From Burkholderia plantarii (GTDB lineage Bacteria > Pseudomonadota > Gammaproteobacteria > Burkholderiales > Burkholderiaceae): a stretch of 64,000 nucleotides of DNA. Each line of letters opens with the position of its first letter. Position 1 is the first letter of the stretch. The stretch covers positions 2,046,001 to 2,110,000 of the forward strand of contig NZ_CP007213.1 in NCBI RefSeq assembly GCF_001411805.1, written 5' to 3'. Both the position numbers and the translations under genes were made by a program. Below, piece by piece: positions 19,367 through 45,701 of this stretch. The notes beneath the pieces are model-generated. The model ran no database searches. It saw only the letters and a list, made by a program, of their open reading frames with translations, and had not been told where the DNA came from.

Positions 19367-19408
19367 GATGTCCCCTCCGATGCCGATGCGGCTGCCGATA
19401 ACGGTGTG

Positions 19409-20731: not shown

Positions 20732-20810
20732 GTTGCGGCTCCCTGCGGAGCGTTCGCCGGCCCCCGGCCGCGAACGCGTTGATCGAAGCGCGGGCGGGCC
20801 CGCGCGGAAC

Positions 20811-22624: not shown

Positions 22625-23478
22625 GTCGTGGCTCCCGCGTGCTGGATGGTGTGGCTGCGCAGTCCGTTCCAGACGCGCGAGTGGTAGGTGCGGAACTCCG
22701 GCGCCTCGCGCGCCGACACCGCGGTGCGCGGGCCGTGCGTGGTGAGGCGCACCTCGATGTCGTCCTCGATGCGCGCCGGGCGCCCGCCCAGCAGGATCAC
22801 GCGATCGCTGACCGCGATCGCCTCCTCGATGTCGTGCGTGACGAGCACGACGCTCGTGCCGTTCTGCTCGCGCAGCATCATCACGTCGTCCTCCAGCGCG
22901 AGCCGGGTCTCGTAGTCGAGCGCGGAGAACGGCTCGTCGAGCAGCACCAGCGTGGGATCGACCAGCAGCGTGCGGGTCAGCGCCACGCGCTGGCGCATGC
23001 CGCCCGACAGCGAATGCGGATAGGCGTCGGCCACGGCGCCCAGCCCGTAGCGCGACAGCATCTGGCGCGCGCGTTCGAGATCGGCCGGGCCGATCTTGCG
23101 GTACAGCTCGATGCCGAGCACCGCGTTCTGCAACACCGTGCGCCACGGCATCAGCAGGTCCTTCTGCAGCATGTAGGCGATGCGGCCCGCGCTGCCGTCC
23201 TCGCGCGCGCCCACGCTCACCTGGCCCGACTGCGGCCGGATCAGCCCGGACACCAGATTGAACAGCGTGCTCTTGCCGGCGCCGCTGCGCCCGACGATCG
23301 ACACGATCTCGCCGCGCTTCACGCTGAAGTCGAGCCGCTCGAAGATCGGCACCTCCACGTCGTCTGCAGTCCGAAATGCATGGCTGAGCTGCTGGACCCT
23401 GAGGCGGTCCGTGCCCGATGCGCGCATCGCATCGATCCCGCCCGCTGCAGGCGCAGCGGCAAAGGCAGAGAGATTCAT
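22621..23478 (-). CDS. ABC ATPase of nitrate/sulfonate type (SsuB/TauB-like)
   Basis: Start set at 23478 (MNLSAFAAA) because GGAG precedes it at good spacing; ATGs at 23484 and 23490 in the same frame are possible. The 285-residue ATPase has Walker A GRSGAGKST, signature LSGGMRQR, Walker B VLLDEPFSALD and switch His in VTHDIEEA, the pattern of SsuB/TauB. It energises the permease that follows. It is the first gene of the importer-amidase set and lies downstream of a region with palindromic GCACAA repeats. An N-terminal stretch of about 25 residues before the ATPase core is poorly conserved. Confidence 0.93.
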   Translation of the reverse strand: MNLSAFAAAPAAGGIDAMRASGTDRLRVQQLSHAFRTADDVEVPIFERLDFSVKRGEIVSIVGRSGAGKSTLFNLVSGLIRPQSGQVSVGAREDGSAGRIAYMLQKDLLMPWRTVLQNAVLGIELYRKIGPADLERARQMLSRYGLGAVADAYPHSLSGGMRQRVALTRTLLVDPTLVLLDEPFSALDYETRLALEDDVMMLREQNGTSVVLVTHDIEEAIAVSDRVILLGGRPARIEDDIEVRLTTHGPRTAVSAREAPEFRTYHSRVWNGLRSHTIQHAGATT

Positions 23479-23848
23479 GGACATCTCCATCGGTACGTGA
23501 TGTACGTTTGTGCTATGCACAACGCATCATGCACAATCAAAAAAGCCGTGGCACAAAATGAAAAAAAGTCGGTGGCGGCCGCGTGCCGCAAGCTGGGGCG
23601 CGGGTCGCGCACGAAAAACGTGCGGGCTGGTGAAGTGTCGTGCCGGCGCGGGGAATGCCGCACCGCGATGGCGCACGAGGCGGTGCGCCGGCAACGATCG
23701 CCGAGGGAGGACGGGGGAAGGAGGCGACTTCGTTGTTCTTCGTTATTGAACGAAGCCGCCGGAGCTGGAAAACCTGTCGGTGTGTCCGCGCCGTATCCGG
23801 GATCGCGATGGATTCGATCCGGCTGGCGGCGCTGCGGGCCTTGTGCCC
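23479..23848. other. 370-base control region upstream of the importer-amidase operon
   Basis: No gene is supported here. The left half contains A-rich sequence and the GCACAA repeats described separately. The right half is GC-rich and adjoins the stop of the FkbM gene. Confidence 0.5.
23508..23556 (-). promoter_or_regulatory. candidate operator: TTGTGC-TAT-GCACAA palindrome plus two more GCACAA half-sites
   Basis: TTGTGC and GCACAA form a perfect inverted repeat at 23508-23522 around TAT, and further direct GCACAA half-sites occur at 23531-23536 and 23551-23556. The cluster starts 30 bases upstream of the ATPase start and lies in the expected promoter zone. Length and symmetry fit a dimeric GntR/FCD regulator; assignment to the GntR gene at 18701 is inferred. 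Confidence 0.5.
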
Positions 23849-27945: not shown

Positions 27946-28851
27946 ATGTCCTTTCCCCTGTCTCCCGCCCAGGTCGCCCAGTTCGAAGCCGACGGATTCC
28001 TCGTCATTCCCGGCCTGCTCGACACCGAGGCGGTCGCCTCGATGCAGGCCGCCATCGACGAGATCATCGCCTCGACCAGCGACCTGCGCGAAGTCGCCGA
28101 ACTCGAGCCGAGCGATCCCGCCGTGATCCGCCGCATCTGGCAACCGTCGAAGCGCCACGCCGCGTTCCGTGCCGTGCAGGAGAACTCGCGCCTGCTCGAT
28201 CATCTCGAGTCGCTGATCGGCCCCGACATCGTGTTCCACCACAGCAAGCTCAACATGAAGGGACCGCGCGTCGGCTCGCCGGTGGAATGGCACCAGGATT
28301 TCTCGTACTACCCGCACACCAATTCGAAGCTGGTGGCCTGCCTCGTCTATCTCGACGACGCGTCCGAATCGAACGGCTGCCTGCGCGTGCTGGCCGGCTC
28401 GCACAAGGCGCAGATCTACGACCACTCCGAGAACGGCTTCTTCCGCGGCAAGGTCGGCCTCGACAAGCTGCCGTCCGGCTGCGTGGAAAAGACCGCGGCG
28501 GGCCGCGCCGGCAGCGCCGTGTTCCTGCACTGCCGCGTGCTGCACCGCTCCGACCCGAACCATTCGGACCGCTACCGCCGCTGCTTCATCCCGGCCTACC
28601 GCGCCGCCGACGCGCTGCCGATCTACTACGGCCCGCACGCCGCGCACAACGAGGCCGGCACCTATCTGCTGCGCGGGCAGCAGCGCCGCTTCGTGACGAG
28701 CGAGGCCGGCACCTGGCCGATGCCGATCACGGAGAAGGCGTTCAACTCGCTCTACGCGCTGCAGCAGGGCGAGCACACGCTCGACCAGCCGCTGCACACC
28801 GTGTCGAGCGGCTACGCCACCCAGCCCCACCAGCCCGCCACCCACCAGTAA
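27946..28851 (+). CDS. phytanoyl-CoA dioxygenase (PhyH)-family Fe(II)/2-oxoglutarate oxygenase
   Basis: Start chosen at 27946 (MSFPLS); the frame extends 23 codons upstream without family similarity. The 301-residue protein shows the iron-binding facial triad as His116 and Asp118 in EWHQDFSYY and a distal His200 in VLHRSDPN. The Arg-rich segment RYRRCFIPAYR lies downstream, where 2-oxoglutarate-binding residues are expected. PhyH enzymes hydroxylate or otherwise oxidise small molecules and appear often in natural-product loci. The ATP-grasp/DUF1611 gene starts 10 bases after its stop, so they share a transcript. It would tailor an acid or amino-acid-like building block here. Confidence 0.88.
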   Translation: MSFPLSPAQVAQFEADGFLVIPGLLDTEAVASMQAAIDEIIASTSDLREVAELEPSDPAVIRRIWQPSKRHAAFRAVQENSRLLDHLESLIGPDIVFHHSKLNMKGPRVGSPVEWHQDFSYYPHTNSKLVACLVYLDDASESNGCLRVLAGSHKAQIYDHSENGFFRGKVGLDKLPSGCVEKTAAGRAGSAVFLHCRVLHRSDPNHSDRYRRCFIPAYRAADALPIYYGPHAAHNEAGTYLLRGQQRRFVTSEAGTWPMPITEKAFNSLYALQQGEHTLDQPLHTVSSGYATQPHQPATHQ

Positions 28852-28861
28852 CGGGGTCGTC

Positions 28862-31231
28862 ATGAAACCGCACATCCTCGTGATGAATCGCTGGCCGCAA
28901 TACCGCAACGGGCATCCGTGGGATCACGAGCTGTGCCGGCATGACGAAATCATCCCGTCGCGCTACGCGGTCAGCTATCTCTGCGACGAGGAAGGCAGCC
29001 GCGGGCTGCCGCTCGGGCAGGACCCGGCCCGCGTTTATCGCGTCGACGATTTCCTCGACACCGAGGCGCTCGCCGCGCAGGTCAAGCGCGCGATCGTCGA
29101 GCACGGCCCGGTCTCGCACCTGCTGGCGTTCTCGGAGTACCTGCTCGACCCGGCCGCGGCGATGCGCGAGCGCTTCGGCATTCCCGGCCAGAGCCGCGCC
29201 GAGGTCGACCGGTTCCGCGACAAGACGCTGATGAAGCGGATCCTGCAGGCGGCCGACCTGCGCGTGCCGCGCTGGTTCGCCTGCACCACGCCCGACGAGA
29301 CCGAGGCGCGGGCGCGCGAACTGGGCTTCCCGCTGATCCTCAAGCCGATCCGCGGCGCGTCGAGCAAGGGCGTGCGGAAGCTGGACTCGATCGACGCGCT
29401 GCGCGCCGCGCTCGCCACGCCGGACCTCGGCCAGTACGAGATCGAGGAATACATCGACGGCGAGATCCTGCACGTGGACGGCGTCCTCGACCGGGCGGGC
29501 CGCTGCATGTTCCTCTGCGTGAGCCGCTACATCTCGTCCTGTCTCGACTTCGAGGCCGGCGTGCCGCTCGGCTCGGTGATCCAGACCGACACCCCGCTCG
29601 CCCGCGCCTGCCGCGCGTTCGCGCTGGCCTGCCTGCGCGCGCTCGAGCTGCGCGGCTCGGCGTTCCATCTCGAACTGTTCAGCCGCCACGGCGAGCTGGT
29701 GTTCCTCGAGATCGGCGCGCGCGTGCCCGGCGCCGACGTGCCCTACACGGTCGACCGCGCGTTCGGCGTCAACCTGTTCCGCCTGTGGGTGGACGCCGCG
29801 CTCGACCTGCCGGCCTCGCTGCCGGTGGTGTCGCCGCCGCGCAGCGCCGGCTGGGTGACGATTCCGCGGCCCGCGCCGCTGCCGCGCCGGGTGGTGTCGG
29901 CGGGCTCGCTGCTGGGCCGCGTCCCCGGCCTCTATCGCGAACTGATCCCGACGCCGGGCGACCTGCTGACGGACACCGGCGGCGGCTACACGCACCTGCA
30001 GGGCGGCCGCTTCCTGATCGAGGGCGCCAATGAGCGCGAGGTGCTCGCCTCGATCCGCGAGATCGTCGCCCGCTACGAACTGAGCACCACTCCCGTTTCA
30101 GCCGCCTCTGTCGATTTTCACCAGGAGACTCCCATGCGAACGCTTACCCATGCCGAACTGCTTGCCAAACGATGCGTCGTCTTCGCCGAGGGCTGCTTCG
30201 GCCTCTTCACCAGCAAGGTGGCCGCCTCCTACCTGCGCTACCGGCCGGAATCGGCGCTGGCCGTGATCGACAGCACCCAGGCCGGCAAGCGCGTGAGCGA
30301 CGTGATCGGCTACGGCGGCGAGATCCCGGTGGTCGCGAGCGTCGAGGAAGCGCTCGCGGGCAAGCCCGAAGTGCTGCTGATCGGCAAGGGGCTGCATTCG
30401 GCCCAGCTGCCGCCGGGCTGGAAGGTGCCGCTGCTCACCGCGATCCGCAGCGGCCTGCACGTCATCAACTGCATCCACTTCCGGCTGCGCTCGGACCCGG
30501 ACCTGGCCGCGGCGATCGACGAGGCCGGCATCACGGTCTGGGAGACCAAGGAGCCGGTGCCGCTCGAACTGAACAAGGCGCGCGTGCTGGCGCTGCCCTG
30601 CTTCGTGGCCCATACCTGCGGCAGCGATTCGAACATCGGCAAGAAGACCGCGGCGCTCGAAATCAGCCTGGAAGCGAACCGGCGCGGCATCCGCACCGGC
30701 TTCGCCGCCACCGGCCAGACCGGCATGCTGATCTCCGGCACTGGCATCGTGGTGGACTGCATCCCGAGCGACTTCGTGGCGGGCGCCGCCGAGAAGGTGG
30801 TGCTCGACGCCGCCGAGGGCAACGACTGGGTGGTGCTCGAGGGCCAGGGCTCGCTCAACCACATCGGCGCGAGCGGCATCGCGCTGGCGCTGCTGCACGG
30901 CGGGCTGCCGCACGCGCTGATCTTCTGCCACCGGCTCGGCCTCGAACGCACCAAGGTGTGGGACACCAAGCTGCGGCCGATCCCCGAGCTGATCCGCCTC
31001 AACGAGGCGCTCACGGTGTTCGAGCGGCCGGCCAAGGTGGTGGCGATCAGCGTGAACAGCGCGGGCTTGAGCGACGCCGACTACCGCGCCCAGGCCGACG
31101 CGCTGGCGCGCGAGACCGGCCTGCCGGTGGTCGATCCGTGCCGCGACGGCGCCGGCCTGCTGGTGGACGCGCTGCTGGCCTACCAGAAGACGCTGGAAGC
31201 CGCCCCGCACGCCGAAGAGGTGACGCAATGA
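28862..31231 (+). CDS. ATP-grasp ligase fused to a DUF1611 (DgcN-like) domain
   Basis: A 789-residue two-part protein. Residues 1 to about 405 form an ATP-grasp ligase: RDKTLMKRILQAADLRVPRW, FPLILKPIRGASSKGV (ATP-binding Lys and loop), YEIEEYIDGE and the metal-binding end FLEIGARVPG. Residues 425-789 match DUF1611, with the P-loop-like GSDSNIGKKTAALE; a relative, DgcN, acts with the enolase-superfamily DgcA in D-glutamate use. A linker of about 18 residues joins them. An AGGAG sequence and an in-frame ATG sit exactly at the join (30134), so the second half may also be made separately. Its stop overlaps the next ATP-grasp gene (ATGA). Peptide-bond-like ligation is inferred. Confidence 0.85.
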   Translation: MKPHILVMNRWPQYRNGHPWDHELCRHDEIIPSRYAVSYLCDEEGSRGLPLGQDPARVYRVDDFLDTEALAAQVKRAIVEHGPVSHLLAFSEYLLDPAAAMRERFGIPGQSRAEVDRFRDKTLMKRILQAADLRVPRWFACTTPDETEARARELGFPLILKPIRGASSKGVRKLDSIDALRAALATPDLGQYEIEEYIDGEILHVDGVLDRAGRCMFLCVSRYISSCLDFEAGVPLGSVIQTDTPLARACRAFALACLRALELRGSAFHLELFSRHGELVFLEIGARVPGADVPYTVDRAFGVNLFRLWVDAALDLPASLPVVSPPRSAGWVTIPRPAPLPRRVVSAGSLLGRVPGLYRELIPTPGDLLTDTGGGYTHLQGGRFLIEGANEREVLASIREIVARYELSTTPVSAASVDFHQETPMRTLTHAELLAKRCVVFAEGCFGLFTSKVAASYLRYRPESALAVIDSTQAGKRVSDVIGYGGEIPVVASVEEALAGKPEVLLIGKGLHSAQLPPGWKVPLLTAIRSGLHVINCIHFRLRSDPDLAAAIDEAGITVWETKEPVPLELNKARVLALPCFVAHTCGSDSNIGKKTAALEISLEANRRGIRTGFAATGQTGMLISGTGIVVDCIPSDFVAGAAEKVVLDAAEGNDWVVLEGQGSLNHIGASGIALALLHGGLPHALIFCHRLGLERTKVWDTKLRPIPELIRLNEALTVFERPAKVVAISVNSAGLSDADYRAQADALARETGLPVVDPCRDGAGLLVDALLAYQKTLEAAPHAEEVTQ
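30123..30136 (+). promoter_or_regulatory. internal ribosome binding site and in-frame ATG between the two domains of the fusion
   Basis: AGGAG at 30123-30127 stands 6 bases ahead of ATG at 30134-30136, which opens the DUF1611 part as MRTLTHAELL. The spacing is ideal and the site is stronger than those of several neighbours. It may start a separate DUF1611 protein of 365 residues from the same message. Confidence 0.6.
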
Positions 31232-32538
31232 AAGACGCCGTGATCCTGCTGATGCATCAGGGCAACTCGTTCGTGCAGGAGCTGGCCGCGCTGCTCGCCG
31301 CGCGCGATCTCGCGCTCGTGGCGGTCAGTTCGAAGCCCGCCGACACGGCCGTGTTCGAACGCAACCAGGCGTTCCTCGACGGCTGGCAGCTGACCGACTC
31401 GGCCGAGCTGCGGCCGGCCGACGTGACGACCGCCGCGCGGCACTTCGAGCAGGCCGGCTACCGGTTGCGCGCCGCCATCGCCACCTTCGAGGGCTATCGG
31501 CTGCTGATGGCCGAACTGAACGCCACGCTCGGCGCGCGCGACGCGCCCGCCGCGGCGCTCGCGCTCGCGCTCGACAAGTTCCGCTGCCGCACCTTCCTGC
31601 GCGAGGCGGGCCTGAGCGAGGTGGCCTGCGAGCTGATCGAGGCCGGGGCGGCGGTGCCCGACCTGGATCCGTCGCGCCGCTGGTTCGTCAAGCCGGTGCG
31701 CGGCGCGGCCTCGTTCGGCTGCTTCATCCTGGCCCATCCCGACGACCTGCGCGACCTGCCCGAGATGCAGGCGCAGATGCACAACGACGGCAAGCTGTCG
31801 TCGATCTTCATGGGCAAGTTCGGCTTCTTCGCCGAGGAATACGTCGAGGGCCCGGAGTTCAGCTTCGAGATCGCGGCGGCGGACCGCCCGCGCGTGGTCT
31901 GCGTCCACGAGAAGGCGCGCGTCGAGCGCCTGCAGCGCACCACGCTGGAGAGCATGTCGATCTCGCCGCCCGTGAGCCTGCCCGAGGCCACGCTGCGGGA
32001 AGGCGCCGCGTTCGTGTCCGAGTGCCTGGGCCGGATCGGGCTCACCAACGGCGCGTACCACGTCGAGATGAAGTACTGGGAGGCGCGGCGCCGCTGGGAA
32101 ATCATCGAGATCAATCCGCGCATGGGCGGCAGCCTGATCAACGCCAGCACCGAGCGGATCACCGGCGTGTCGATGCTCGAACTCTGGCTGCGCTCGCTGC
32201 TGCTGCGCGACGCGGCCGGACTGGCCGGCTTCCACGGCTTCGTCGACGGCGTCGCGCAGGCGGGCCGCGCCGCCGCCGAGACCGGCGAGCGCGCCACGGT
32301 GTTCGTCAGCAAGTACGGCCAGAAGGGCCGCACGGTGGCCTCGATCGAGTACGACGCGGGCGGCCGCACGCCCGACGTGCTCGAACTGCACGTGAAGGCC
32401 GGCGCGACGCTCGAGAACTCGGACCGCGCGATCTGCGTGATGGACGCGCTCTGGGAAGTCGATCGTGCCTCGCTCGCGCAGTCGGTCGAGGCGATCGAGC
32501 AGGAATCGGACGCACGCTTTCACATCACGTACCAGTGA
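31228..32538 (+). CDS. stand-alone ATP-grasp carboxylate-amine ligase
   Basis: A 436-residue ATP-grasp enzyme. It has DKFRCRTFLREAGL before the fold, RWFVKPVRGAASFGCFIL (ATP-binding Lys and Gly/Ser loop), FFAEEYVEGPEFSFE and the metal-binding end WEIIEINPRMGGSLIN. These motifs are typical of ligases joining a carboxylate to an amine with ATP through an acyl phosphate, such as dipeptide and L-amino-acid ligases. Its start overlaps the stop of the ATP-grasp/DUF1611 fusion, giving two ligases in tandem. The N-terminal 100 residues form a pre-ATP-grasp domain (VILLMHQGN; GYRLLMAELNATLG). The substrates are unknown; with the neighbours a short peptide-like product is possible. Confidence 0.88.
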   Translation: MKDAVILLMHQGNSFVQELAALLAARDLALVAVSSKPADTAVFERNQAFLDGWQLTDSAELRPADVTTAARHFEQAGYRLRAAIATFEGYRLLMAELNATLGARDAPAAALALALDKFRCRTFLREAGLSEVACELIEAGAAVPDLDPSRRWFVKPVRGAASFGCFILAHPDDLRDLPEMQAQMHNDGKLSSIFMGKFGFFAEEYVEGPEFSFEIAAADRPRVVCVHEKARVERLQRTTLESMSISPPVSLPEATLREGAAFVSECLGRIGLTNGAYHVEMKYWEARRRWEIIEINPRMGGSLINASTERITGVSMLELWLRSLLLRDAAGLAGFHGFVDGVAQAGRAAAETGERATVFVSKYGQKGRTVASIEYDAGGRTPDVLELHVKAGATLENSDRAICVMDALWEVDRASLAQSVEAIEQESDARFHITYQ

Positions 32539-32599
32539 CGATACGGCGGCCCGCACGGCGGCCGTCCGGCGGTTGGCTCCTTCCTTGTCGGAGACGTTC

Positions 32600-33763
32600 A
32601 TGGCAGATCTGTCCCATCCGGCTTTCGACGCCCATCTCGGCGGAAAGCTCGAAGTCGTCGGCCGGGTTCGCATCGACACGCGCGAGGATCTCGCGCGCGT
32701 CTACACCCCCGGCTTCGCCCACGTCGCCGCCGCGATCCATCGCGATCCGGCGCTGATCCGGCGCTACACCATCCGCCAGAACACGGTCGCCATCGTCACC
32801 GACGGCACCGCCGTGTCGGGCATCGGCAACGTCGGCCCGCATGCCGCGCTGCCGGTGATGGAAGGCAAGGCGCTGGTGTTCCGCCGCTTCGCCGGCCTCA
32901 ACGCGGTGCCGCTCTGCCTGGCCACCACCGATCCGGACCAGATCGTCGAGACCGTCGAGCGGATCGCCCCGGCGTTCGGCGCGGTGATGCTGGAAGACAT
33001 CTCGGCGCCGCGCTGCTTCGAGATCGAGACACGCCTGCACGAGCGGCTCGAGATCCCGGTGATGCACGACGACCAGCACGCCACCGCGATCTCGGCCGGC
33101 GCGGCGCTCGTCAACGCGCTCAAGCTGGTGGGCAAGCGCGTCGAGACCGTCAAGGTGGTGATGGTGGGCGCGGGCGCGGCCGGCACCGGCTGCGCGAAGA
33201 TGTTCCTGAACCTCGGCGTGCGCCGGCTGATCGGCTGCGACCGCGCGGGCGCGATCCATCGCGGCCGCGCCGATCTGAACGACGCCAAGGCCTGGTTCGC
33301 CCGGCACGCGAACCCGGATCAGGAAACCGGCTCGCTGCGCGAGGTGCTGGCGGGCGCGGACGTGTTCCTCGGCGTGTCGGGGCCGGGCGTCGTCACGGCC
33401 GACGAGATCCGGCTGATGGCGCGGCGCCCGATCATCTTCGCGCTCGCCAATCCGCAGCCGGAAATCATGCCGGCCGATCTGCGCGACGTCGACGCGATCG
33501 TGGCGACCGGGCGCAGCGACCTGCCCAACCAGATCGACGGCGGGCTGGCCTACCCGGGCCTGTTCCGCGGCGTGCTCGACGTGGGCGCGGCGAAGTTCTC
33601 GGAGGCGATGAAGCTGGCCGCCGCGCAGGCACTGGCCAGGCTCGTGGACGGCGCCGCGCTCGAGGCCGGGCGAATCGTCCCGGACATCTTCGACGAACGC
33701 GTGATGCCGGCCGTGGCGGCGGCCGTCGCGGCGGCCGCCACGCCCGCGGCCCGCGCCGCCTGA
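32600..33763 (+). CDS. NAD(P)-dependent malic enzyme, short form without phosphotransacetylase domain
   Basis: Start set at 32600 (MADLSHPAF) with GGAG just upstream. The 387-residue enzyme has the malic-enzyme signatures RVYTPGFAHVA and IVTDGTAVSGIGNVGP, the metal-site segment MHDDQHATAI, and the nucleotide-binding VVMVGAGAAGTGCAKMFL. It decarboxylates malate, or a relative of it, to pyruvate. It is about half the length of MaeB-type enzymes, which carry a C-terminal phosphotransacetylase-like domain. Placement among ligase and racemase genes suggests it feeds or trims a hydroxy-diacid precursor rather than serving central metabolism; that is inference. It lies 61 bases after the second ligase gene. 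Confidence 0.92.
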   Translation: MADLSHPAFDAHLGGKLEVVGRVRIDTREDLARVYTPGFAHVAAAIHRDPALIRRYTIRQNTVAIVTDGTAVSGIGNVGPHAALPVMEGKALVFRRFAGLNAVPLCLATTDPDQIVETVERIAPAFGAVMLEDISAPRCFEIETRLHERLEIPVMHDDQHATAISAGAALVNALKLVGKRVETVKVVMVGAGAAGTGCAKMFLNLGVRRLIGCDRAGAIHRGRADLNDAKAWFARHANPDQETGSLREVLAGADVFLGVSGPGVVTADEIRLMARRPIIFALANPQPEIMPADLRDVDAIVATGRSDLPNQIDGGLAYPGLFRGVLDVGAAKFSEAMKLAAAQALARLVDGAALEAGRIVPDIFDERVMPAVAAAVAAAATPAARAA

Positions 33764-33837
33764 CGCGGGGCCGCGCGATGCCGCCTCCCGTTCATTCCGT
33801 TCGCGCCGCTGCCGCCGCGCGATGCGTGCCGCGCCGC

Positions 33838-34716
33838 TCAGGCCGCCAGATGGACGCGGGCCTGGTCGAGCACCACCTGGCGCAGCTGCTCCAGCGCCGG
33901 CGACATGCGGGTCTGGCCGTCGTGCAGGCACAGCTCGACGACCGGCAGCCCGGGCAGGCCCTCCGCCTCGCCGAGCCGGCGCAGCGTGGGCGGAATCCCG
34001 GCGGCGGTGCGCAGGGTGATGCCGAGCCCCGCCTCCACGCCGGCCCACAGGCTCTGCAGGCTCGCCGTGGTATAGGCGAGGCGCCACGGGATCTTGGCGT
34101 CGTCCAGCGCCTGCACGCCGGCGCGGCGGAACTGGCACGGCGGGTTGTAGAGCGCGAGGTCGAGCGGGCGGTCGGGCCGCGGCGGCGCCGCCGCGCCGTG
34201 GTTCGGCCCGATCCAGGCCATCGGCAGCGAGGCGATGTGCCGGGCGTCGGCGCGCGTGGCATGGCCCATCGCCAGCGCGAGATCGAGTTCGCCGCGGTCG
34301 AGCCGCTCCAGCAGCAGCCGGTTCGGCTCGACGGCGATCTCCACGCGCACCGCGGGATGGCTTTTCTTGAAGTCGCCGAGCACGGCGGGCAGCCAGGTCT
34401 CGGCGAAATCGCTGGGCAGCCCGAAGCGCACGCTGCCTTCCAGCGCGCTGCCGCGCACCGAGAGGATCGCCTCGTCGTTGAGGTCGAGGATGCGCCTGGC
34501 ATAGGAAAGAATCACGTCGCCCGCCTCGGTCAGCACGAGCCCGCGGCCCTGCCGGCGAAACAGCGGCAGCCCGACCTGTTCCTCGAGCTTGCGGATCTGC
34601 TGGCTGATCGCCGATTGCGATCGCCCGACCCGTTCCGCCGCCCGATTCAGGCTGCCCAATTGATGCGCGGCCAGTAATGTCCGCATTACATCCATATCGA
34701 GATTCGGCAGCGACAT
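33838..34716 (-). CDS. LysR-family transcriptional regulator
   Basis: A 292-residue LysR regulator with the DNA-binding helix pair LGSLNRAAERVGRSQSAISQQIRKLEEQVG (about residues 20-49, quoted here as two adjoining helices) and the usual substrate-binding-like C-terminal domain. It interrupts the plus-strand gene set and is divergent from the lipocalin-like gene at 34884, with 167 bases between them. That places its own operator in the gap, and makes it the probable controller of the genes that follow and perhaps of those before. The gap is AT-rich by local standards. The effector is unknown. Confidence 0.93.
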   Translation of the reverse strand: MSLPNLDMDVMRTLLAAHQLGSLNRAAERVGRSQSAISQQIRKLEEQVGLPLFRRQGRGLVLTEAGDVILSYARRILDLNDEAILSVRGSALEGSVRFGLPSDFAETWLPAVLGDFKKSHPAVRVEIAVEPNRLLLERLDRGELDLALAMGHATRADARHIASLPMAWIGPNHGAAAPPRPDRPLDLALYNPPCQFRRAGVQALDDAKIPWRLAYTTASLQSLWAGVEAGLGITLRTAAGIPPTLRRLGEAEGLPGLPVVELCLHDGQTRMSPALEQLRQVVLDQARVHLAA

Positions 34717-34883
34717 GATTCAGTTTTTCCACAGAGTCGATGAAGAATTATCGCATTTCTTACGGGCCGGGTTGGCTACCATTCCGGTTGCGATTCGCAC
34801 CAGCGGCCCTTACCGGCCGGCGCTTATCGATTGGTGATGGAAACGGAATAATGCCGAACCCGAAATCATTATGGATCCCGCAT

Positions 34884-35402
34884 ATGCTCAAGAAAACTGA
34901 ATGGTCGTTGCCGCGCGGCGCGCTGGCCCTGCTCGCCTGCGCCTCTCTCGCGATGCCGCTGCGCGCCATGGCCGACGGCGCCGCGGCCGCGCTGGCCGGC
35001 ACCTGGACGCTGGTCGCGGCCGACGTGGAGCACCCCGACGGCACGCGCGGCCGCGATTATGGCGCGGCACCCTCGGGATTGCTGATGATCGACGGCGAAG
35101 GCCGTTATTCGCTGCAGATTTTCAAGCAGGAACGCGAACGTTTCGGCACCGGCGACAAGGCGACCGGCACCGCCGCCGAATACAAGGGCGCGGTGACGGG
35201 TTCGAGCACGCATTTCGGCACGCTCGAAATCGATCCGGCCGCGCATACCCTGGTTTTCCATATTCAGCATGCGTCGTTTCCGAATTGGGAAGGCGCGCAA
35301 CAGAAACGGACTTACGAAATTCACGGTAACGAATTGAGTTATCGCGTGGTGGCCCGTCCGAACGGCGATGTGCCGATCTCGGTCTGGAAGAAAGTGGATT
35401 GA
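34884..35402 (+). CDS. exported lipocalin-like protein
   Basis: Start set at 34884 (MLKKTEWSLPRG) because it gives a proper signal peptide (about residues 1-30, cut near AMA-DG). The 172-residue product has the short lipocalin-like fold of small bacterial proteins: LAGTWTLVAADVEHPDG at the start, GLLMIDGEGRYSLQIFK, and a closing YEIHGNELSYRV strand. Such proteins probably bind a small ligand in the periplasm. It is divergent from the LysR gene and begins the right half of the plus-strand set (exporter and racemase follow). A link with the pathway product, such as binding it before export, is speculative. Confidence 0.72.
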   Translation: MLKKTEWSLPRGALALLACASLAMPLRAMADGAAAALAGTWTLVAADVEHPDGTRGRDYGAAPSGLLMIDGEGRYSLQIFKQERERFGTGDKATGTAAEYKGAVTGSSTHFGTLEIDPAAHTLVFHIQHASFPNWEGAQQKRTYEIHGNELSYRVVARPNGDVPISVWKKVD

Positions 35403-35494
35403 CGCGGCTTCCGGCGGCGCGCGCCGGGCGGGCGGCATGCCTCGCCGCTCCGCCAGGCGCGCCGCCGACGCCGCCCTCACCCTGACGAACTGAC

Positions 35495-36424
35495 ATGGCA
35501 ACGCTCTCATCGACCCCGTGGGAATGGGCCTGGGTGCCCATCGTGCTGTGCGCCGCCTTCGGGCGCACCGTGCGCAATGCGGCGCAGCGCAGCCTGACCG
35601 AACAGGCCGGCACGCTGCCCGCCACCCTGGTGCGGTTCCTGTACGGGCTGCCGTGCGCGCTCGCCTGGCTGCTGCTGCTCGAACACCTGAGCGGCGGCGC
35701 GATGCCGGGCGTGACGCCGGTCTGGGCCGGCTGGCTCACGCTCGGCGCGGTCGCGCAGCTGAGCGCCACCGCGCTGCTGCTGATGGCGATCCGGCATTGC
35801 AACTTCGTGGTGGCCGTCACCTACTCGAAGACCGAGCCGGTGCAGGTCGCGCTGTTCTCGCTGCTGTTCCTCGGCGAGCTGCCCGGCGAGTATTCGATCC
35901 TCGGCATGCTGATCGCGATGGCGGGCGTGGCCCTGCTGACGTTTCCGCGCCGCGAGCAGCGCGCCGCCATGGCCGGCAGCTGGCTCGGCCGCTCGACGCT
36001 CTACGGGCTCGGCGCGGGCGCGCTGTTCGCGCTGATGGCGGTGGGCTATCGCGCCGCCGCGCTGCACCAGCCGCACGTCACGCCCTGGCTGAACGGCGCG
36101 TGGGGCGTGCTGTGGGCGCAGGCGATCCAGTCGGTGCTGCTCGGCGGCTACCTGCTCGCCACCAATCGTCCGGGGCTGCTCGTGATCCTGCGGGTCTGGC
36201 GCTTCTCGACGATGGTCGGCACGGTCGGCGCGCTCGCCACCATCGGCGAGCTGACCTCGCTGGCGCTGCACGGCGCCACCGACGTGCGCACCCTGGGGCT
36301 GATCGAGGTGCTGTTCAGCTATCTGGTTTCGCGCCGCTTCCTCCGCGAGAAGCTCGGGGCGATCGAGGGCTGGGGCATCGCGCTCGTGACCTCGGGGCTC
36401 GTGGTGGTCTGCGCGCAGTGGTAG
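35495..36424 (+). CDS. EamA/DMT-superfamily transporter
   Basis: A 309-residue membrane protein with about ten hydrophobic segments in two similar halves, the pattern of drug/metabolite transporters. KTEPVQVALFSLLFLGE in the first half and VLFSYLVSRRFLREKLG in the second are the paired EamA end-of-repeat motifs. Members export amino acids, metabolites or toxins. It lies between the lipocalin-like gene and the racemase-like gene, 58 bases before the latter, and is the natural candidate to export a product of the surrounding enzymes. Direction and substrate are inferred. Confidence 0.9.
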   Translation: MATLSSTPWEWAWVPIVLCAAFGRTVRNAAQRSLTEQAGTLPATLVRFLYGLPCALAWLLLLEHLSGGAMPGVTPVWAGWLTLGAVAQLSATALLLMAIRHCNFVVAVTYSKTEPVQVALFSLLFLGELPGEYSILGMLIAMAGVALLTFPRREQRAAMAGSWLGRSTLYGLGAGALFALMAVGYRAAALHQPHVTPWLNGAWGVLWAQAIQSVLLGGYLLATNRPGLLVILRVWRFSTMVGTVGALATIGELTSLALHGATDVRTLGLIEVLFSYLVSRRFLREKLGAIEGWGIALVTSGLVVVCAQW

Positions 36425-36482
36425 CCACGCGCCCTCGCGCGCCGTCGCGGTACGCCTTACCGCCCCCCTCAGGAGATGATCG

Positions 36483-37568
36483 ATGATGCCAAGCCTCAAG
36501 TTTCGCGAGCTGAAGGCCACCCCGGTGCGCCTGCCGATGTCGAACCCGATCCGCACCGCCAGCGGCACGATCGCCGATGCGCCGTTCGTGCTGATCGACC
36601 TGCACACCGACCAGGGCGTGACCGGACATGCCTACCTGTTCGTCTTCACGCCGCTCGTGCTGAAGGCGCTGACCACGCTCATCACGCAGCTCGGCGAGCG
36701 CCTCGAAGGCAAGCCGCTCGCGCCGCTCGACACGCGCGACGCGCTCGAATCGCAGTTCCACCTGGTCGGCAACACCGGGCTCGTCAGCATGGCGATCGCC
36801 GGCATCGAGATGGCGCTGTGGGATGCCCACGCGCGCGCGCTCGGCGTCCCGCTGGTGCGCGCGCTGGGCGGCACGCCGCAGCCGGTGCCGGCCTATTCGA
36901 GCATCGGCATGCTCGGCGCCGAGGCCAGCTGCCGGCTCGCCGAGCAGTCGGTCGAGCGCGGCTTTCGCGCCATGAAGATCAAGATCGGCCACATCACGCT
37001 CGAGCAGGACCTGGAGGTGGTGCGGGCCGTGAAAGCGGTGCTGGGCGACCGCTCGATGCTCTGCATCGACTACAACCAGGGCCTGACGGTGGACGAGGCG
37101 GTGCGCCGCTGCCGTGCGCTCGACGAGCTGGGCCTGGGCTGGATCGAGGAGCCGACCCGGCAGGACGACTACGCCGGCCATGCCCGCGTCGCGGCCGCCA
37201 CCGCCACGCCGATCCAGATGGGCGAGAACTGCTTCGGCATCCACGAGCTGGCCAAGTGCATCGCCGCCGGCGCGTCCGACCTGCTGATGTTCGATCTGAT
37301 GAAGATCGGCGGCGTGTCGCGCTGGCTGCAGGGCGCGGCGCTGGCCGACGCCGCGTCGCTGTCGGTCAGCACCCACAACTACCAGGAGATCAGCGCGCAC
37401 CTGATGGCCGTCACGCCCACCGCGCACTGGCTCCAGTACTACGACTACGCCGACCTGGTGCTGCGCGAGCCGATGCGCATCGTCGACGGCAACGCGATCC
37501 CGAACGAGACGCCCGGCAACGGCATCGACTGGAACCCCGAGGCCGTCGCGCGCTACCGGGTCGAATGA
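36483..37568 (+). CDS. mandelate-racemase-like enolase-superfamily enzyme with Gln in place of the acid Glu
   Basis: A 361-residue protein that aligns by eye with Pseudomonas putida mandelate racemase over nearly its full length without gaps; tandem ATGs start it. Catalytic positions (enzyme numbering is one lower) are Lys165 and Lys167 in MKIKIGH, the metal ligands Asp in CIDYNQG, Glu in WIEEPT and Glu in QMGEN, Asp in FDLMKIGG, and His298 in STHNYQEISAHL. The racemase Glu317, which acts as the electrophilic acid, is Gln318 here (AHWLQ). It may racemise or dehydrate an alpha-hydroxy acid with altered chemistry. AGGAG precedes the start. It ends the plus-strand gene set. Confidence 0.92.
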   Translation: MMPSLKFRELKATPVRLPMSNPIRTASGTIADAPFVLIDLHTDQGVTGHAYLFVFTPLVLKALTTLITQLGERLEGKPLAPLDTRDALESQFHLVGNTGLVSMAIAGIEMALWDAHARALGVPLVRALGGTPQPVPAYSSIGMLGAEASCRLAEQSVERGFRAMKIKIGHITLEQDLEVVRAVKAVLGDRSMLCIDYNQGLTVDEAVRRCRALDELGLGWIEEPTRQDDYAGHARVAAATATPIQMGENCFGIHELAKCIAAGASDLLMFDLMKIGGVSRWLQGAALADAASLSVSTHNYQEISAHLMAVTPTAHWLQYYDYADLVLREPMRIVDGNAIPNETPGNGIDWNPEAVARYRVE

Positions 37569-37942
37569 GGCGCGCGGGCCGCGCCGCCGCGCCTCGCGGT
37601 GGGGGCGCGGCGGCGGATGAATCACGGCAGGCAGGAAAAAAGCCTGAAAATGTTGACGGGACGTCCGGAAAAAATGGCAGCCAGGAATTCAGGGAGGACG
37701 CCGGGCGCGAGTTCGGGCAGAGAGTTCGGGCGGGAGGCGCGCGGCCGCGAGCAGGCGGGCGGCCGCGCGTTCGCCCGTCTCGTTCGCTCGTGCGTTCGCC
37801 GTCCCGGGGAAGGGGGACGCGGAAGGACCGGAGCGGTCGCCGGGACGGCCCGCGGTGCCGGGTGGCGATCGGTGGCGGACCGTCGGACGGCGCGGCCCGC
37901 GGCACCGGCTTGCGCGTGCGCCGGCGGCGCACGCGTGGCGCG
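37569..37942. other. 374-base convergent intergenic region
   Basis: This region separates the racemase-like gene from the convergent LuxR-type gene. It contains a strong GC hairpin just after the racemase stop (see the separate entry) and otherwise Arg- and Gly-rich frames without protein similarity. Confidence 0.5.
37582..37615 (+). terminator. GC-rich hairpin after the racemase-like gene
   Basis: CGCCGCCGCGCC at 37582-37593 pairs perfectly with 37604-37615 around a 10-base loop, 14 bases after the stop codon. No U-tract follows, so it may slow transcription or stabilise the message end rather than act as a full intrinsic terminator. Confidence 0.4.
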
Positions 37943-38329
37943 TCAGGCCTCCTCCTTCACGGCCAGCCAGTCCGGCTCGACCTCGGCCGTGCTGGTGATG
38001 AGCCCCATGCCCCGTACCGCGGCCCTGGTTCGATTGGTCACGCCGAGCTTCTTGAACAGGATGCCGATATGCATCTTGACCGTGACGATCTCGATGCCGA
38101 GCAGATCGGCAATCGCCTTGTTCTGGTAACCGTGGATGATGCAGACCAGAATCTGCTGCTGTCGCGATGACAGCTTGGGGACGTCGTAGCCGGACAGCTC
38201 CACCGCCTCGTCCTGCCGATACTCGCCGCGCTGGCCCGGGGTCGGCCTGAACCCGGTGGACGCTGCCGGCTGCGGCGAGCGCCGCGATCGGGAAGTGTCG
38301 TCGTGCCGCACGACACCCTCGCAATTCAT
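37943..38329 (-). CDS. LuxR/GerE-type helix-turn-helix regulator (short, no receiver domain)
   Basis: Start set at the ATG at 38329; an upstream TTG at 38374 is possible. The 128-residue protein has a LuxR-type DNA-binding domain at about residues 52-105 (LSSRQQQILVCIIHGYQNKAIADLLGIE followed by TVKMHIGILFKKLGV, quoted here in two segments), with about 50 residues of Arg- and Ser-rich sequence ahead of it. There is no receiver or autoinducer-binding domain, so it is a minimal DNA-binding unit. It is the last gene of a minus-strand set with the EPSP-synthase-like and diiron-like genes and probably controls them. Confidence 0.82.
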   Translation of the reverse strand: MNCEGVVRHDDTSRSRRSPQPAASTGFRPTPGQRGEYRQDEAVELSGYDVPKLSSRQQQILVCIIHGYQNKAIADLLGIEIVTVKMHIGILFKKLGVTNRTRAAVRGMGLITSTAEVEPDWLAVKEEA

Positions 38330-38419
38330 CTCGAATTCGAATCGCTTTTCCACTGCTCTCTCCAGGTGGATCAAACGGAAACACGTCCAGCGTCGGGGCG
38401 GCTACATGGGCTGCCCGAT

Positions 38420-39766
38420 TTATTCGTCGGCGGCTTCGACGACGTAATGCGCCGATGCCGTACTCTGGACGCCAAGCGCTTGGAACTGATCGAGAAAATC
38501 GGGAAACGAGCACGTCACGTCGCTGTATCCGTCGAGATTGCAGGCCTTGTCGAAACGCAAGGCCGCCACGAACAGCGACATGAAGTTGCGGTGGTCGCCC
38601 TGGCTGCTCAGCGACACGCCGCCGGCGTAACGCGCCCTGCCGCGCGTGACGAATCCGTCGACGTGGCCGTCGGGGTGATACAGGATCTCGATGTCGGCGC
38701 CGAGCTTCAGCACCTCGGCCACCATCGACTCGATCCGCGACGACTTGTGGAAGCGCGTGACCGCCCCGCCCCTCACCGTGAATTTGCCCTTCACGAACAG
38801 GCTCAGCGCGACCAGCGTCGGGATGATGTTCGGCCCGTGGCTGACGTCGAATTCGAACTGCCCGTCCAGGCTGGCGGCGGTGCTGTCGACATGCAGGACG
38901 CGGCCGGCCTCGTAGCGCATCGTCGCGCCGAGCGCCTCGGCGATCTCGACGAACAGCTGCTCGCCCTGCAGCGTGGCCGCGTCGATGCCGGCGATCCGGT
39001 AGTGGCCCGGGAACAGCACGCAAGCCATCAGCAGATACGACAGCGACGTGAAGTCGGCGTTGATCTCGGTCTCGAACGGCTGGTAGGCGCCGGGATGCAC
39101 CCGATACGCGGCATAGTCGGGGCTCGCCTCCACGTTGATGCCGGCGAGGCGCAGGATCTCGAGCGTCTGCGCGATGTACGAGTTCGACAGCACCGGCGAG
39201 GTCATTTCGATATCGACGCTGTGCTCGCCGAACGGCGCGGCCATCAGGATCGCCGTGACGAACTGCGAGCTGATGTCGCCGGCCAGCTGGCAGCGCGTGC
39301 CCTTGAGCGCCTTGCCCCAGTTGATCACGGGTGCCTTGTCGTCGTCGCCGAGGAACGTGAAGCTCGCGCCCAGCGAATGCAGCGCGTCGAACAGCGGCTT
39401 CATCACGCGGCGGCGCAGCGTGGCGTCGCCCGTCAGGATGGTGGGAAAGCCACGCATGCAGTTCAGCGCCATCATGGTGCGGAACACCAGGCCGGAACCC
39501 TTGGCGTCGATCACGTGGATGTCGGTGCTGAAGCGGCCCCCCGCGCCGGTGATCACCAGCGAATCGTCGGTCTCCTCGATGATCGCGCCGAGCTTGCGGC
39601 ACGCGGTTTTCATGGTTTCGGTCTCGAGGCAGCGAAGATCGTTATGGATGATCGACGTACCCGCCGCGAGCGTGGCGGCCAGAATCGCCCGTTGCGTTTC
39701 CGGCTTCGAGGCGGGAACGCGCATATCCCGTCCCAACTGTTTGATCGGTTCGACACGCAGATACAT
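38420..39766 (-). CDS. EPSP-synthase-family (enolpyruvyl transferase) paralogue with altered catalytic residues
   Basis: Start set at 39766 (MYLRVEPIKQ) with GGAGAGG just upstream. The 448-residue, two-domain protein keeps EPSP-synthase landmarks: Lys21 and Arg26 in ASKPETQR, GDATLRRRVM, DISSQFVTAILMAAP and QGDHRNFM. By eye, catalytic Asp313, Glu341 and Lys411 of the E. coli enzyme fall at Asn (GPNIIPTL), Lys (FHKSSRIESM) and Cys (TCSFPDF). It is therefore unlikely to be the housekeeping aroA and is probably repurposed in a small-molecule pathway. It lies between the diiron-like gene (133 bases upstream) and the LuxR-type gene. Confidence 0.85.
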   Translation of the reverse strand: MYLRVEPIKQLGRDMRVPASKPETQRAILAATLAAGTSIIHNDLRCLETETMKTACRKLGAIIEETDDSLVITGAGGRFSTDIHVIDAKGSGLVFRTMMALNCMRGFPTILTGDATLRRRVMKPLFDALHSLGASFTFLGDDDKAPVINWGKALKGTRCQLAGDISSQFVTAILMAAPFGEHSVDIEMTSPVLSNSYIAQTLEILRLAGINVEASPDYAAYRVHPGAYQPFETEINADFTSLSYLLMACVLFPGHYRIAGIDAATLQGEQLFVEIAEALGATMRYEAGRVLHVDSTAASLDGQFEFDVSHGPNIIPTLVALSLFVKGKFTVRGGAVTRFHKSSRIESMVAEVLKLGADIEILYHPDGHVDGFVTRGRARYAGGVSLSSQGDHRNFMSLFVAALRFDKACNLDGYSDVTCSFPDFLDQFQALGVQSTASAHYVVEAADE

Positions 39767-39898
39767 ACCCTCTCCCATCGGATTAAAAACAGGGAATGCC
39801 GGAATGGCGGATCCATTCCGGGCACCGGCGCGGCCCGCGGCAAGGCTCGCGGTCGGCCACGCGCTCACGAAGGCCGGCAGTGGCCCGGCCGGACCGGC

Positions 39899-40651
39899 TT
39901 ACGCCGCCGTCTTCTGCGTTGCCTTCAGCACCGTGTCTTCGTAGATCTCGCGAAAGAACATCGCGAGGATCTCCTGCACGTCGTCGATGTACTTGAACAC
40001 CGCTTCGTAGTCGTCCTCGCTGAGGATCAGCTGGTTCAGGATCTTCCACATCTCCAGCGAGTGATCGTCGCGGGTGTCCACCACCAGATGCGCCTCCTGC
40101 CCCTTGATCAGGTCGTGGCCGAGCGTGGACTTCAGGTTCTTCACGATGTCCGGCTGCAGCTTGGCCTGCGTGTATTCGACCAGGTAGTTCGACACCACCG
40201 GCGCCATCGGGTGTTCGTGTTCGAGGGTGTAATAGAAATAACCTTCGAACAGCTTGGTCGAGAGGTACGGCTCGGTGTTGAGGATCTCCTCCATCGAGAC
40301 GCCGGCGGCCTCGCAGTCGTGAATGTAAAGCTTGTCGTGCAGCATCTCGTCGGCCTGATAATGCGCGTATTCCTGTGCCGCGGCCGGCGAAATCTGGGCG
40401 ATCTTATAGATCGCCTTCGACTGGCTCACTCGGGAAAGACGAATCCGCCACACGTGCTCGATCAGTGTGCGCCGGTAGTAATTCATGTTGATGGTTTTGT
40501 CTTTCATATGGGAGGCGTATGGCACCGACTGGCGCCAGGCTTCCATCTTCTTGTCGAGATAGCGATCGATTCTCGATTTCCGCTCCAACCCCTCCGTATC
40601 GGAGAAGAACGGAGTCGGATGCTGAATGCCGGTGTGTTGAACGCGATTCAT
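39899..40651 (-). CDS. haem-oxygenase-like (putative diiron) oxidase/oxygenase
   Basis: Start set at 40651 (MNRVQHTG) with GGAG upstream. The 250-residue, all-helical protein resembles the haem-oxygenase-like diiron enzymes (a TenA-like fold; the class of UndA, BesC and SznF). Candidate metal ligands are the Glu and His of QADEMLHDKLYIHD and the Glu, His and Asp of KGQEAHLVVDTRDD, spaced as in that class. Such enzymes cleave or N-oxygenate amino acids and fatty acids. It is the first gene of a minus-strand set with the EPSP-synthase paralogue and a LuxR-type regulator. Metal content and substrate are inferred. Confidence 0.72.
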   Translation of the reverse strand: MNRVQHTGIQHPTPFFSDTEGLERKSRIDRYLDKKMEAWRQSVPYASHMKDKTINMNYYRRTLIEHVWRIRLSRVSQSKAIYKIAQISPAAAQEYAHYQADEMLHDKLYIHDCEAAGVSMEEILNTEPYLSTKLFEGYFYYTLEHEHPMAPVVSNYLVEYTQAKLQPDIVKNLKSTLGHDLIKGQEAHLVVDTRDDHSLEMWKILNQLILSEDDYEAVFKYIDDVQEILAMFFREIYEDTVLKATQKTAA

Positions 40652-44369: not shown

Positions 44370-45701
44370 CTATCGCGCCAGATGCACGCGCAGCCGTTCG
44401 ACGATCGCCTCGAAGCCGGGGCGGCTGCCGGCATCGGGGCTCAGGCAGGCCGCCGTCAACGCGGCCAGCGCGTCGAGCGCGGCCGAGCGGTGCGCCTCGG
44501 TGCGTTCGAGCAGTTCCTCCAGCAGGCAGCCGAACGCGCGCACCTCGATGCGCTGCAGCGCGAGGCCGGGCGCCGCGTCGCGCGGGCCATACAGCGAGGC
44601 GGCGCCGAAATCGCCGAGCAGCGCGTGGCCGGCGCCGTCGTGCAGGATGTTGTGCGCGTAGAGATCGCCATGCAGGATGCCGCGCCGGTGCAGGTGCGCG
44701 GCGGCCGACGCGATGCCGTGCGCGATCCGCAGCGTCGCGCCCAGATCGAAGCGCCGGTCGTCTGGATAGACGTCGCGCGTGCAGCTGTCGAAGCTCGGCG
44801 GCGCCGCGAGTACTTCGAAGTCGTGTTCGATCAGCGGCATCACCAGCCCCTGCTCGCCGATCGGATGGCCCTTCAGCTTGCCGAGCGCGCCGATCAGGTT
44901 CGGCTGCGCGCCCGCATGCAGGCAGGCGGCCATCTCGCGATCGGGCAGGCCGTCGCTCGTCACCGCGCCCTTGAACAGCTTCACGGCCACCGCCTGCTGC
45001 GGGTGATGGTCGGCCGACAGCCGGATCGCGCGATAGATCACGCCCGAGGCGCCCTCGCCGAGCTTCTGGCCAAGCGCGAGCGTGGCCCAGCCGATCTCGC
45101 CGACCGCGCCGTCGGCCGCCGCGTCGGCCTCGGCCGCGGCGGCGCACGGGTTGCCCGCGTAGCCGAGCCAGGCCAGGCGCGGCAGCCGCAGCAGCCACTC
45201 CGGCAACGCCTCGAACCGGTTCGCGGCCAGCCGCACCAGTTCGAGCCGCGTGCAGGCCGCCATCTCGTCGGGCAGCGCGCTCAGGCGGTTGCCGGCCAGC
45301 ATCAGCTTCTGCAGTTCGGCGCAGCGGCCGAGTTCGGGCGGCAGCGCCGCGATCTCGTTGTCGGTCAGGATCAGCCAGCGCAGCCGCGGCGGCAGCGCGG
45401 CGCCCGGCACCTCGCGAATCCGGTTCGCCTTGAAGCCCACCATGCTCAGCTGCCCGCACTCGCCGAGCACGGCCGGCAGTTCGGTAAACGGATTGTTCGA
45501 GGCGAACAGCACGCGCAGCTTCGCGAGCCTGGGCAGGTCGTCGGGCAGCGTGCCGAGCGCGTTGCCGGACAGATCGAGCACTTCCAGCGTGTCGGCCAGC
45601 TCGAAGATCTCGCGCGGGAATTCGGTCAGGCCGCCGCCGAGTTTCAGGTGCCGGGCGCCCGCGAGTTCGCCGGCTTTCAGTTGTTCAAGGGTGGTCGTCA
45701 C
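44370..45701 (-). CDS. leucine-rich-repeat protein with C-terminal Ser/Thr-type kinase domain
   Basis: A 443-residue fusion beginning with GTG. Residues about 15-190 hold some six leucine-rich repeats of the pattern LxxLxLxxNxLxxLP. Residues about 205-443 form a protein-kinase domain with a Gly-rich loop GEGASGVIYRA, the ATP Lys in VAVKLF, a catalytic loop HGDLYAHN (Asp and Asn present, but Gly replaces the usual Arg of HRD) and DFG in LLGDFGAAS. The domain is shorter than in eukaryotic kinases, and the C-lobe is small. It may phosphorylate host or bacterial targets; there is no signal peptide. It stands alone between soxD and tkt, facing left. Confidence 0.9.
   Translation of the reverse strand: MTTTLEQLKAGELAGARHLKLGGGLTEFPREIFELADTLEVLDLSGNALGTLPDDLPRLAKLRVLFASNNPFTELPAVLGECGQLSMVGFKANRIREVPGAALPPRLRWLILTDNEIAALPPELGRCAELQKLMLAGNRLSALPDEMAACTRLELVRLAANRFEALPEWLLRLPRLAWLGYAGNPCAAAAEADAAADGAVGEIGWATLALGQKLGEGASGVIYRAIRLSADHHPQQAVAVKLFKGAVTSDGLPDREMAACLHAGAQPNLIGALGKLKGHPIGEQGLVMPLIEHDFEVLAAPPSFDSCTRDVYPDDRRFDLGATLRIAHGIASAAAHLHRRGILHGDLYAHNILHDGAGHALLGDFGAASLYGPRDAAPGLALQRIEVRAFGCLLEELLERTEAHRSAALDALAALTAACLSPDAGSRPGFEAIVERLRVHLAR

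Follow-up and report, generated by a model that had tools for sequence, protein, structure and literature searches.

A conserved gene group of Burkholderia and Streptomyces that combines an MboA-type oxidase with an altered EPSP-synthase homologue and appears to make a small peptide

Introduction

A locus of Burkholderia plantarii that encodes two ATP-grasp ligases, a PhyH-type dioxygenase, a haem-oxygenase-like diiron oxidase (HDO) and a homologue of EPSP synthase, the glyphosate target, raises the question of whether its two convergent gene sets serve one pathway or two, and what they make. It was analyzed within a stretch of 64,000 nucleotides (the window, whose coordinates are used below unless a genome or locus is named), which lies on contig 2 of a three-contig, 8.08-Mb genome. 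The gene group is common to Burkholderia and some Streptomyces and appears to make a small peptide. Because a relative of the mangotoxin enzyme MboA and a rebuilt relative of EPSP synthase occur in one gene group, the locus points to unexplored natural-product chemistry. The gene set was not described in the titles and abstracts of the open-licence PMC literature searched.

Gene content and extent of the locus

Genes were called by combining open reading frame (ORF) lists, third-position GC and Pfam matches. Every gene of the original prediction was recovered with the family named for it: PhyH, ATP-grasp, DUF1611, malic enzyme, Lipocalin_5 and EamA by Pfam, and the mandelate-racemase family, EPSP synthase, haem-oxygenase-like protein, LysR and LuxR/GerE by family search. 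The predicted ATP-grasp/DUF1611 fusion consists of the first ATP-grasp ligase (AG1) and DUF1611 in a single frame, and the second ATP-grasp ligase (AG2) is a separate gene. The plus strand carries, in order, PhyH, AG1-DUF1611, AG2, malic enzyme, lipocalin, EamA and racemase; the minus strand carries LysR, which lies inside the plus-strand set, followed by LuxR, the EPSP-synthase homologue (hereafter the altered EPSPS) and the HDO.

27946..28851, plus strand: PhyH-type Fe(II)/2-oxoglutarate dioxygenase (PF05721, E 3.2e-33; ORF opens at 27877)
28862..31231, plus strand: AG1-DUF1611 fusion, a 789-codon frame (Pfam)
31228..32538, plus strand: AG2, second ATP-grasp ligase (ATP-grasp_4; 4-base overlap with the fusion)
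32600..33763, plus strand: short malic enzyme without a phosphotransacetylase domain (Pfam; ORF opens at 32465)
33838..34716, minus strand: LysR regulator (family match; resident gene, probably a bystander)
34740..35402, plus strand: Lipocalin_5 protein (Pfam; resident gene, probably a bystander)
35495..36424, plus strand: EamA transporter, putative exporter of the window subtype (Pfam)
36483..37568, plus strand: mandelate-racemase-family enzyme (family match)
37943..38374, minus strand: LuxR/GerE-type regulator (PF00196; the HTH part alone matched)
38420..39766, minus strand: altered EPSPS, with the EPSP-synthase fold and altered catalytic residues (ORF opens at 39868)
39899..40651, minus strand: HDO, an MboA-type haem-oxygenase-like diiron oxidase (ORF opens at 40714)

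The ATP-grasp match of AG2 was first obtained in a longer overlapping ORF, and its own start is at 31228. The limits at 27946 and 40651 are the first methionines that PhyH and the HDO have in common with their relatives, as counted by hand. The flanking genes for an SBP_bac_3 protein, a sulfite-oxidase-like protein, an aldo-keto reductase and an FkbM methyltransferase were unmatched at E ≤ 1e-4 in the stretches of the other 16 class A loci (defined below) and were rejected as members; the cluster is therefore taken to run from about 27.9 to 40.7 kb. Elsewhere in the window, a single protein encoded at 44370-45701 (minus strand) has leucine-rich repeats followed by a protein-kinase-like domain, and two amidase-family genes lie close to an NMT1-type substrate-binding protein and an ABC-transporter ATPase at 17144-23520 (minus strand).

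Distribution and conservation of the gene set

The core was defined as six proteins: the PhyH dioxygenase, AG1, DUF1611, AG2, the altered EPSPS and the HDO. Statements on neighborhoods cover the 21 loci of the altered EPSPS whose surroundings were examined, 17 of class A and four of class B; all 17 class A loci encode the altered EPSPS by way of their choice. PhyH accompanied the altered EPSPS at all 21 loci. The six-gene core was complete in 16 of the 17 class A loci, from Burkholderiaceae and Streptomyces, the exception (G149) lying at a contig end. DUF1611 was present in 17 of 17, and AG1, AG2 and the HDO each in 16 of 17, the G149 contig being short. In G042 the core is spread over two contigs, with PhyH and AG1 at the start of the other contig. 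In G154, which belongs to another genus, the genes for HDO, altered EPSPS, LuxR, PhyH, AG1-DUF1611, AG2, malic enzyme, lipocalin, EamA and racemase follow one another on one strand, with 73-94% identity. The original prediction had left one pathway or two undecided and had proposed a search for the gene set in other genomes; far from never co-occurring, the two sets were together in 16 of 17 class A loci and co-directional in G154, which favors a single pathway. The predicted genes exist and constitute a single conserved pathway.

AG1 plus DUF1611 was found in eight of 65 same-genus genomes (G000, G017, G025, G038, G042, G052, G063, and G064) and the altered EPSPS in 11 of 65 (E ≤ 1e-60), including all eight (Fisher p 3e-8, a value not corrected for relatedness). 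The altered EPSPS was present in 10 of 299 genomes of an even sample of the family (E ≤ 1e-70) and, with the Salmonella copy as query, in one of 398 genomes from across the phylum, which is the genome of the window. Among 70 genomes of the genus to which the Streptomyces locus L034 belongs, two carried it, the genome of L034 included. No relative of P0102 was found in plasmid records at E ≤ 1e-60.

Over 15 of the 17 class A loci, G042 and G149 being left out, the six core proteins gave concordant distance matrices (r 0.79-0.99, 0 of 2000 permutations each). Agreement was highest for AG1 with AG2 (0.99), DUF1611 with HDO (0.98) and PhyH with the altered EPSPS (0.97); that of PhyH or the altered EPSPS with the ligases was 0.88-0.90. 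Such agreement is a measure of co-inheritance, not of function, and shared descent alone could produce it.

Two further classes of loci contain parts of the set. Class B (G015, G027 and G059, together with another locus of the genome that contains the window) comprises the altered EPSPS, PhyH, LysR and an MFS gene, and no relative of the ligases or HDO was found nearby; the PhyH-EPSPS pair may therefore make something of its own. At the locus in the window's genome (G000:C2:2351766-2353076, L042), the second altered EPSPS (61%) adjoins PhyH (49%), MFS and LysR genes; the class B altered EPSPS of G027 carries two stops. Class C (L097, L098, L055, L081, and L083) comprises a 2Fe-2S protein, an HDO and three ATP-grasp ligases, and two of these clusters are on plasmids, of Burkholderia stagnalis (L097) and Streptomyces cyaneofuscatus (L098). 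Genome G059 bears one class B and one class C locus on different contigs.

The HDO and its relation to mangotoxin biosynthesis

The HDO scored slightly below the Pfam cut-off (26.2 vs. 28.9 bits). A 14-row HDO profile matched MboA (PDB 9ypi) at E 2.8e-41, and the next match was a TenA-like protein at E 6.9e-12; E values were 0.036 for the structure that we take to be CADD, 0.37 for SznF and 1.1 for the structure that we take to be BesC. MboA is the mangotoxin acetylenase and desaturates the C-terminal residue of a tripeptide built by two ATP-grasp ligases (PMC13185094). Its diiron ligands are E86, H89, E143, H172, D176, and H181, Tyr82 is placed as the base, and D90 is flexible (PMC13185094). 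When positions are shifted by a constant 37, as derived by hand, the ligands correspond to E123, H126, E180, H209, D213, and H218 of the window HDO and Tyr82 to Y119, all of which were invariant in the 14 rows, the window's included; D127, the equivalent of D90, was nearly invariant. Judged by these residues, the metal centre and chemistry of the HDO are probably MboA-like. The arginine guanidinium contacts of MboA, N57, D61, and D139 (PMC13185094), are replaced by S94, Q98, and N176. Because these contacts are not kept, the HDO would act on a substrate different from that of MboA, and its substrate residue is probably not arginine. A distant HDO (28%) at L054:8293-11426 (G014), which adjoins two ATP-grasp genes, agrees with MboA in having N and D at two of the three positions that contact arginine.

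The original prediction knew of no product for this enzyme set; the combination of HDO and ATP-grasp ligases does have a known product in mangotoxin (PMC13185094). The window cluster shares with mboABCDEF of Pseudomonas syringae two ATP-grasp ligases and an MboA-type HDO with six diiron ligands and the tyrosine; it differs in having the altered EPSPS, PhyH, DUF1611 and malic enzyme, and in an AG1 that is fused to DUF1611 instead of free-standing. No 2Fe-2S or FAD-reductase match that would indicate an MboB-like reductase was obtained in 20001-47000 of the window with class C proteins as queries, and no counterpart of the MboE deiminase was among the protein families identified in the cluster. 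Because reductase, deiminase and arginine pocket were not encountered, the pathway is not considered a member of the mangotoxin cluster family. Its ligase-plus-HDO part would work as in mangotoxin biosynthesis. A survey shows, in a supplementary figure, 25 or more kinds of cluster that combine an HDO with ATP-grasp ligases (PMC13185094), and that of the window may be among them.

Two other systems invite comparison. The class C clusters L097 and L098 have an HDO (43-45%) together with AG2-like and AG1-like ligases; they differ in having three ligases and a 2Fe-2S protein, and the altered EPSPS, PhyH and DUF1611 were not found in them. For thiovarsolin from Streptomyces varsoviensis, compared here by description, loss of the HDO VarO is reported to remove a double bond in an arginine residue of the peptide, and the cluster likewise has an ATP-grasp gene. 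Unlike the window pathway, thiovarsolin biosynthesis is of the RiPP type and uses YcaO/TfuA together with a precursor peptide; YcaO and TfuA were absent among the families found in the window.

Ligases, DUF1611 and PhyH

AG1 and AG2 both resemble L-amino acid ligases, and AG2 matched the structure of one (PDB 3vot, E 2.2e-10). Within the fusion, the ATP-grasp domain of AG1 spans about residues 1-415 and DUF1611_N/C about 470-770. The two are one protein in the window and in Trinickia caryophylli (P0124); their frames are separate or interrupted in G017, G038, G042, G052, G025 and L033-L035. The P-loop of DUF1611 was kept in the alignment, one bad row aside. Its fusion to AG1 suggests that DUF1611 acts on the substrate or product of that ligase. 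PhyH retained HxD and a distal His, which we take to be the PhyH motif, in seven rows of the alignment. An AG1-like ligase also occurs at L053:4425-15074, with a luciferase-like enzyme, a class II aminoacyl-tRNA-synthetase-like protein and another ATP-grasp protein.

The altered EPSPS

Residues of the altered EPSPS were numbered by E. coli AroA (L056) and compared across the best 120 of 201 database matches. Relative to AroA, the cluster proteins carry D313N, E341K, K340H, N94G, S23P, T97L and C or L at K411. D313N was found in 120 of the best 120 relatives, and E341K and K340H each in 119 of the 119 with a letter at the site. Asp313, Glu341 and K22 are catalytic in AroA. Among the same best 120 of 201, R27, R124, S169, S170, Q171, S197, Y200, and R386 were kept in 120 of 120, K22 in 119 of 120 and R344 in 119 of 119; K340 and K411 were replaced. 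The kept residues presumably bind the anions of S3P and PEP, the PEP site being K22, G96, R124, Q171, R344, and R386, each present in 119 or more of these 120 relatives.

The altered EPSPS has the family of AroA and most of its phosphate- and carboxylate-binding residues, and it scored below the cut-off of the AroA model (NCBIfam TIGR01356, 272.0 vs. 287.25 bits). In the tree a long branch separates it from AroA (stem support 80/78). The closest relatives (best 120 of 201) are named AroA wherever the records give a name; carriers among the matches listed include Trinickia, Achromobacter, Caballeronia, Pseudoalteromonas, Vibrio, Enterobacter, Salmonella, Streptomyces, Kitasatospora and Nocardia. 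The host also encodes an ordinary AroA at C1:1018587 (58% to the E. coli enzyme), which differs, of the sites compared, at 336 (Ser) and 196. On these sequence comparisons the altered EPSPS is not AroA, and it is unlikely to be a copy for self-resistance. Two tandem EPSP-synthase-like genes also lie beside an asparagine-synthase-like gene and an ATP-grasp amino-acid ligase at L043:5634-11701 (G000:C2 about 2936600-2942700); the copy at L043:9002-10357 retains D313 and E341 but not R386.

Alternative explanations

The score close to the AroA model, the retention of most anion-binding residues and the gene's presence in every class A locus, a count that follows from the choice of loci, would also suit an additional EPSP synthase, itself resistant to inhibition, that shields the producer of a glyphosate-like inhibitor. 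The replacements at 313, 341 and 340 throughout the relatives, the ordinary AroA in the host and the long branch make this highly improbable, and self-resistance was rejected on the replaced catalytic residues. A better chance, still below even, attaches to an altered EPSPS that transfers an enolpyruvyl group to another acceptor; this would concern one step and is compatible with the preferred peptide pathway. Its PEP site is kept, and an EPSPS homologue in a cluster has a precedent in bisenarsan of S. lividans, for which BsnM, an EPSP-synthase homologue, is reported to be required and is proposed to transfer the pyruvyl group of EPSP to arsenate (PMC12159101). BsnM is set beside the altered EPSPS by description, and bisenarsan is arsenic chemistry; arsenic or C-P genes were absent among the families found in the window, and K411 and both acid/base residues of the altered EPSPS are replaced.

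Two readings concern the locus as a whole. PhyH and the altered EPSPS could make a small molecule of their own next to an independent peptide pathway of AG1, AG2 and HDO, as the separate existence of classes B and C, their joint occurrence in G059 and the closer co-divergence within the PhyH-EPSPS and AG1-AG2 pairs would allow. We consider this unlikely, since both blocks are together in 16 of 17 class A loci from two phyla and in several gene orders, and DUF1611, fused to AG1 in the window, adjoins the altered EPSPS in G063-type loci. A catabolic or housekeeping role, with malic enzyme, racemase and D-glutamate use like that of DgcN and DgcA, which are described as partners in one pathway (PMC10845958), is highly improbable. 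DUF1611 has the Pfam domains and P-loop of DgcN; unlike DgcN, it is fused to an ATP-grasp ligase and falls below the equivalog cut-off (NF041892, 181.6 vs. 480 bits). The racemase-family enzyme likewise matches the DgcA model weakly (NF042940, 43.7 vs. 400 bits), and a DgcN-DgcA pathway was rejected on these curated cut-offs. The racemase occurs in just five of 17 class A loci, and the altered EPSPS is rare, as its single occurrence among the 398 phylum-wide genomes illustrates.

Proposed pathway

We consider it reasonably likely that this is a specialised-metabolite pathway that resembles mangotoxin biosynthesis and leads to another product. The computations show a single gene set, the family and metal ligands of the HDO, the changed active site of the altered EPSPS and its constant pairing with PhyH. 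Its substrates, order, product, altered EPSPS reaction and any antimetabolite role, for the pathway as a whole, are what we infer in the following scheme. PhyH and the altered EPSPS, with malic enzyme (or aminotransferase in other subtypes), would convert a small, probably phosphorylated or PEP-derived precursor to a nonproteinogenic amino acid, which AG1 and AG2 would join to one or two others at the expense of ATP. DUF1611 would modify or cap the substrate or product of the ligases by N-acylation, the activity for which its relative DgcN is named, or by another P-loop reaction. The diiron HDO would then grip the peptide by its C-terminal carboxylate and desaturate that residue between Cbeta and Cgamma, probably halting at the alkene since an MboB-like electron donor was not found here. 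EamA would export the product, under regulation by the LuxR-type protein. This agrees with the original prediction of a natural-product locus with ligases at its core and a short peptide as the likely product; its other suggestion, a hydroxy-acid conjugate, gained no support of its own.

A more specific proposal has a slightly less than even chance: that the altered EPSPS is a rebuilt family which lost both acid/base residues and gained a reaction new to the fold, and which together with PhyH supplies a new amino acid, from which the two ligases and the MboA-type oxidase form an unsaturated peptide antimetabolite in two phyla. A precedent for PhyH and altered EPSPS as a building-block module was not found in the literature searched. 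If the proposal is true, a family of specialised-metabolism enzymes is concealed in public annotation by the name of the glyphosate target, and peptide pathways of the HDO/ATP-grasp type can be interpreted as sets of modules, with ligases and oxidase constant and the building-block module and electron donor variable.

Variable genes and bystanders

Malic enzyme was present in eight class A loci (seven of Burkholderiaceae and G377) and an aminotransferase in eight others (G063, G064, G191, G294, G112, and three of Streptomyces); the two were never together in the class A stretches examined, and G149 has neither. This alternation hints that both may handle a 2-oxo or 2-hydroxy acid. Compared with E. 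coli MaeB, the window's malic enzyme kept the motifs of its family. EamA was found in five of seven window-type Burkholderiaceae clusters, with an MFS transporter instead in G025 and G052, and a LuxR/GerE-type regulator was matched in all seven. The racemase-family enzyme (E ≤ 1e-110), whose nearest solved structures include mandelate racemase, was found in four of 65 genus genomes, each time inside the cluster, and in G154.

A 2Fe-2S protein resembling the class C one was matched in all five complete G063-type loci, as in the five class C loci themselves. The 11 other class A loci (G149 set aside) had no such match; the Streptomyces loci L033 and L034 have a flavin reductase instead. If the proposed pathway is true, this distribution would permit a direct test of what determines alkene vs. 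alkyne formation.

LysR and lipocalin, which the original prediction had counted with the pathway, did not hold up as members. Lipocalin was found in 24 of 65 genus genomes (E ≤ 1e-20), and the divergent LysR-lipocalin pair stood apart from the cluster at five of five places examined, of 18 lipocalin places outside the cluster; two of the five were in G052 and G025, whose cluster lies elsewhere. Because the pair also stands away from the cluster, both genes are probably resident bystanders. G154 retains lipocalin, and LysR was unmatched there. The same kind of pair lies beside the cluster in G063 and G064, which belong to another subtype, and thus next to two cluster subtypes (window 33838-35402; L051:1-1174; L052:18610-19901); it may be a preferred place of insertion.
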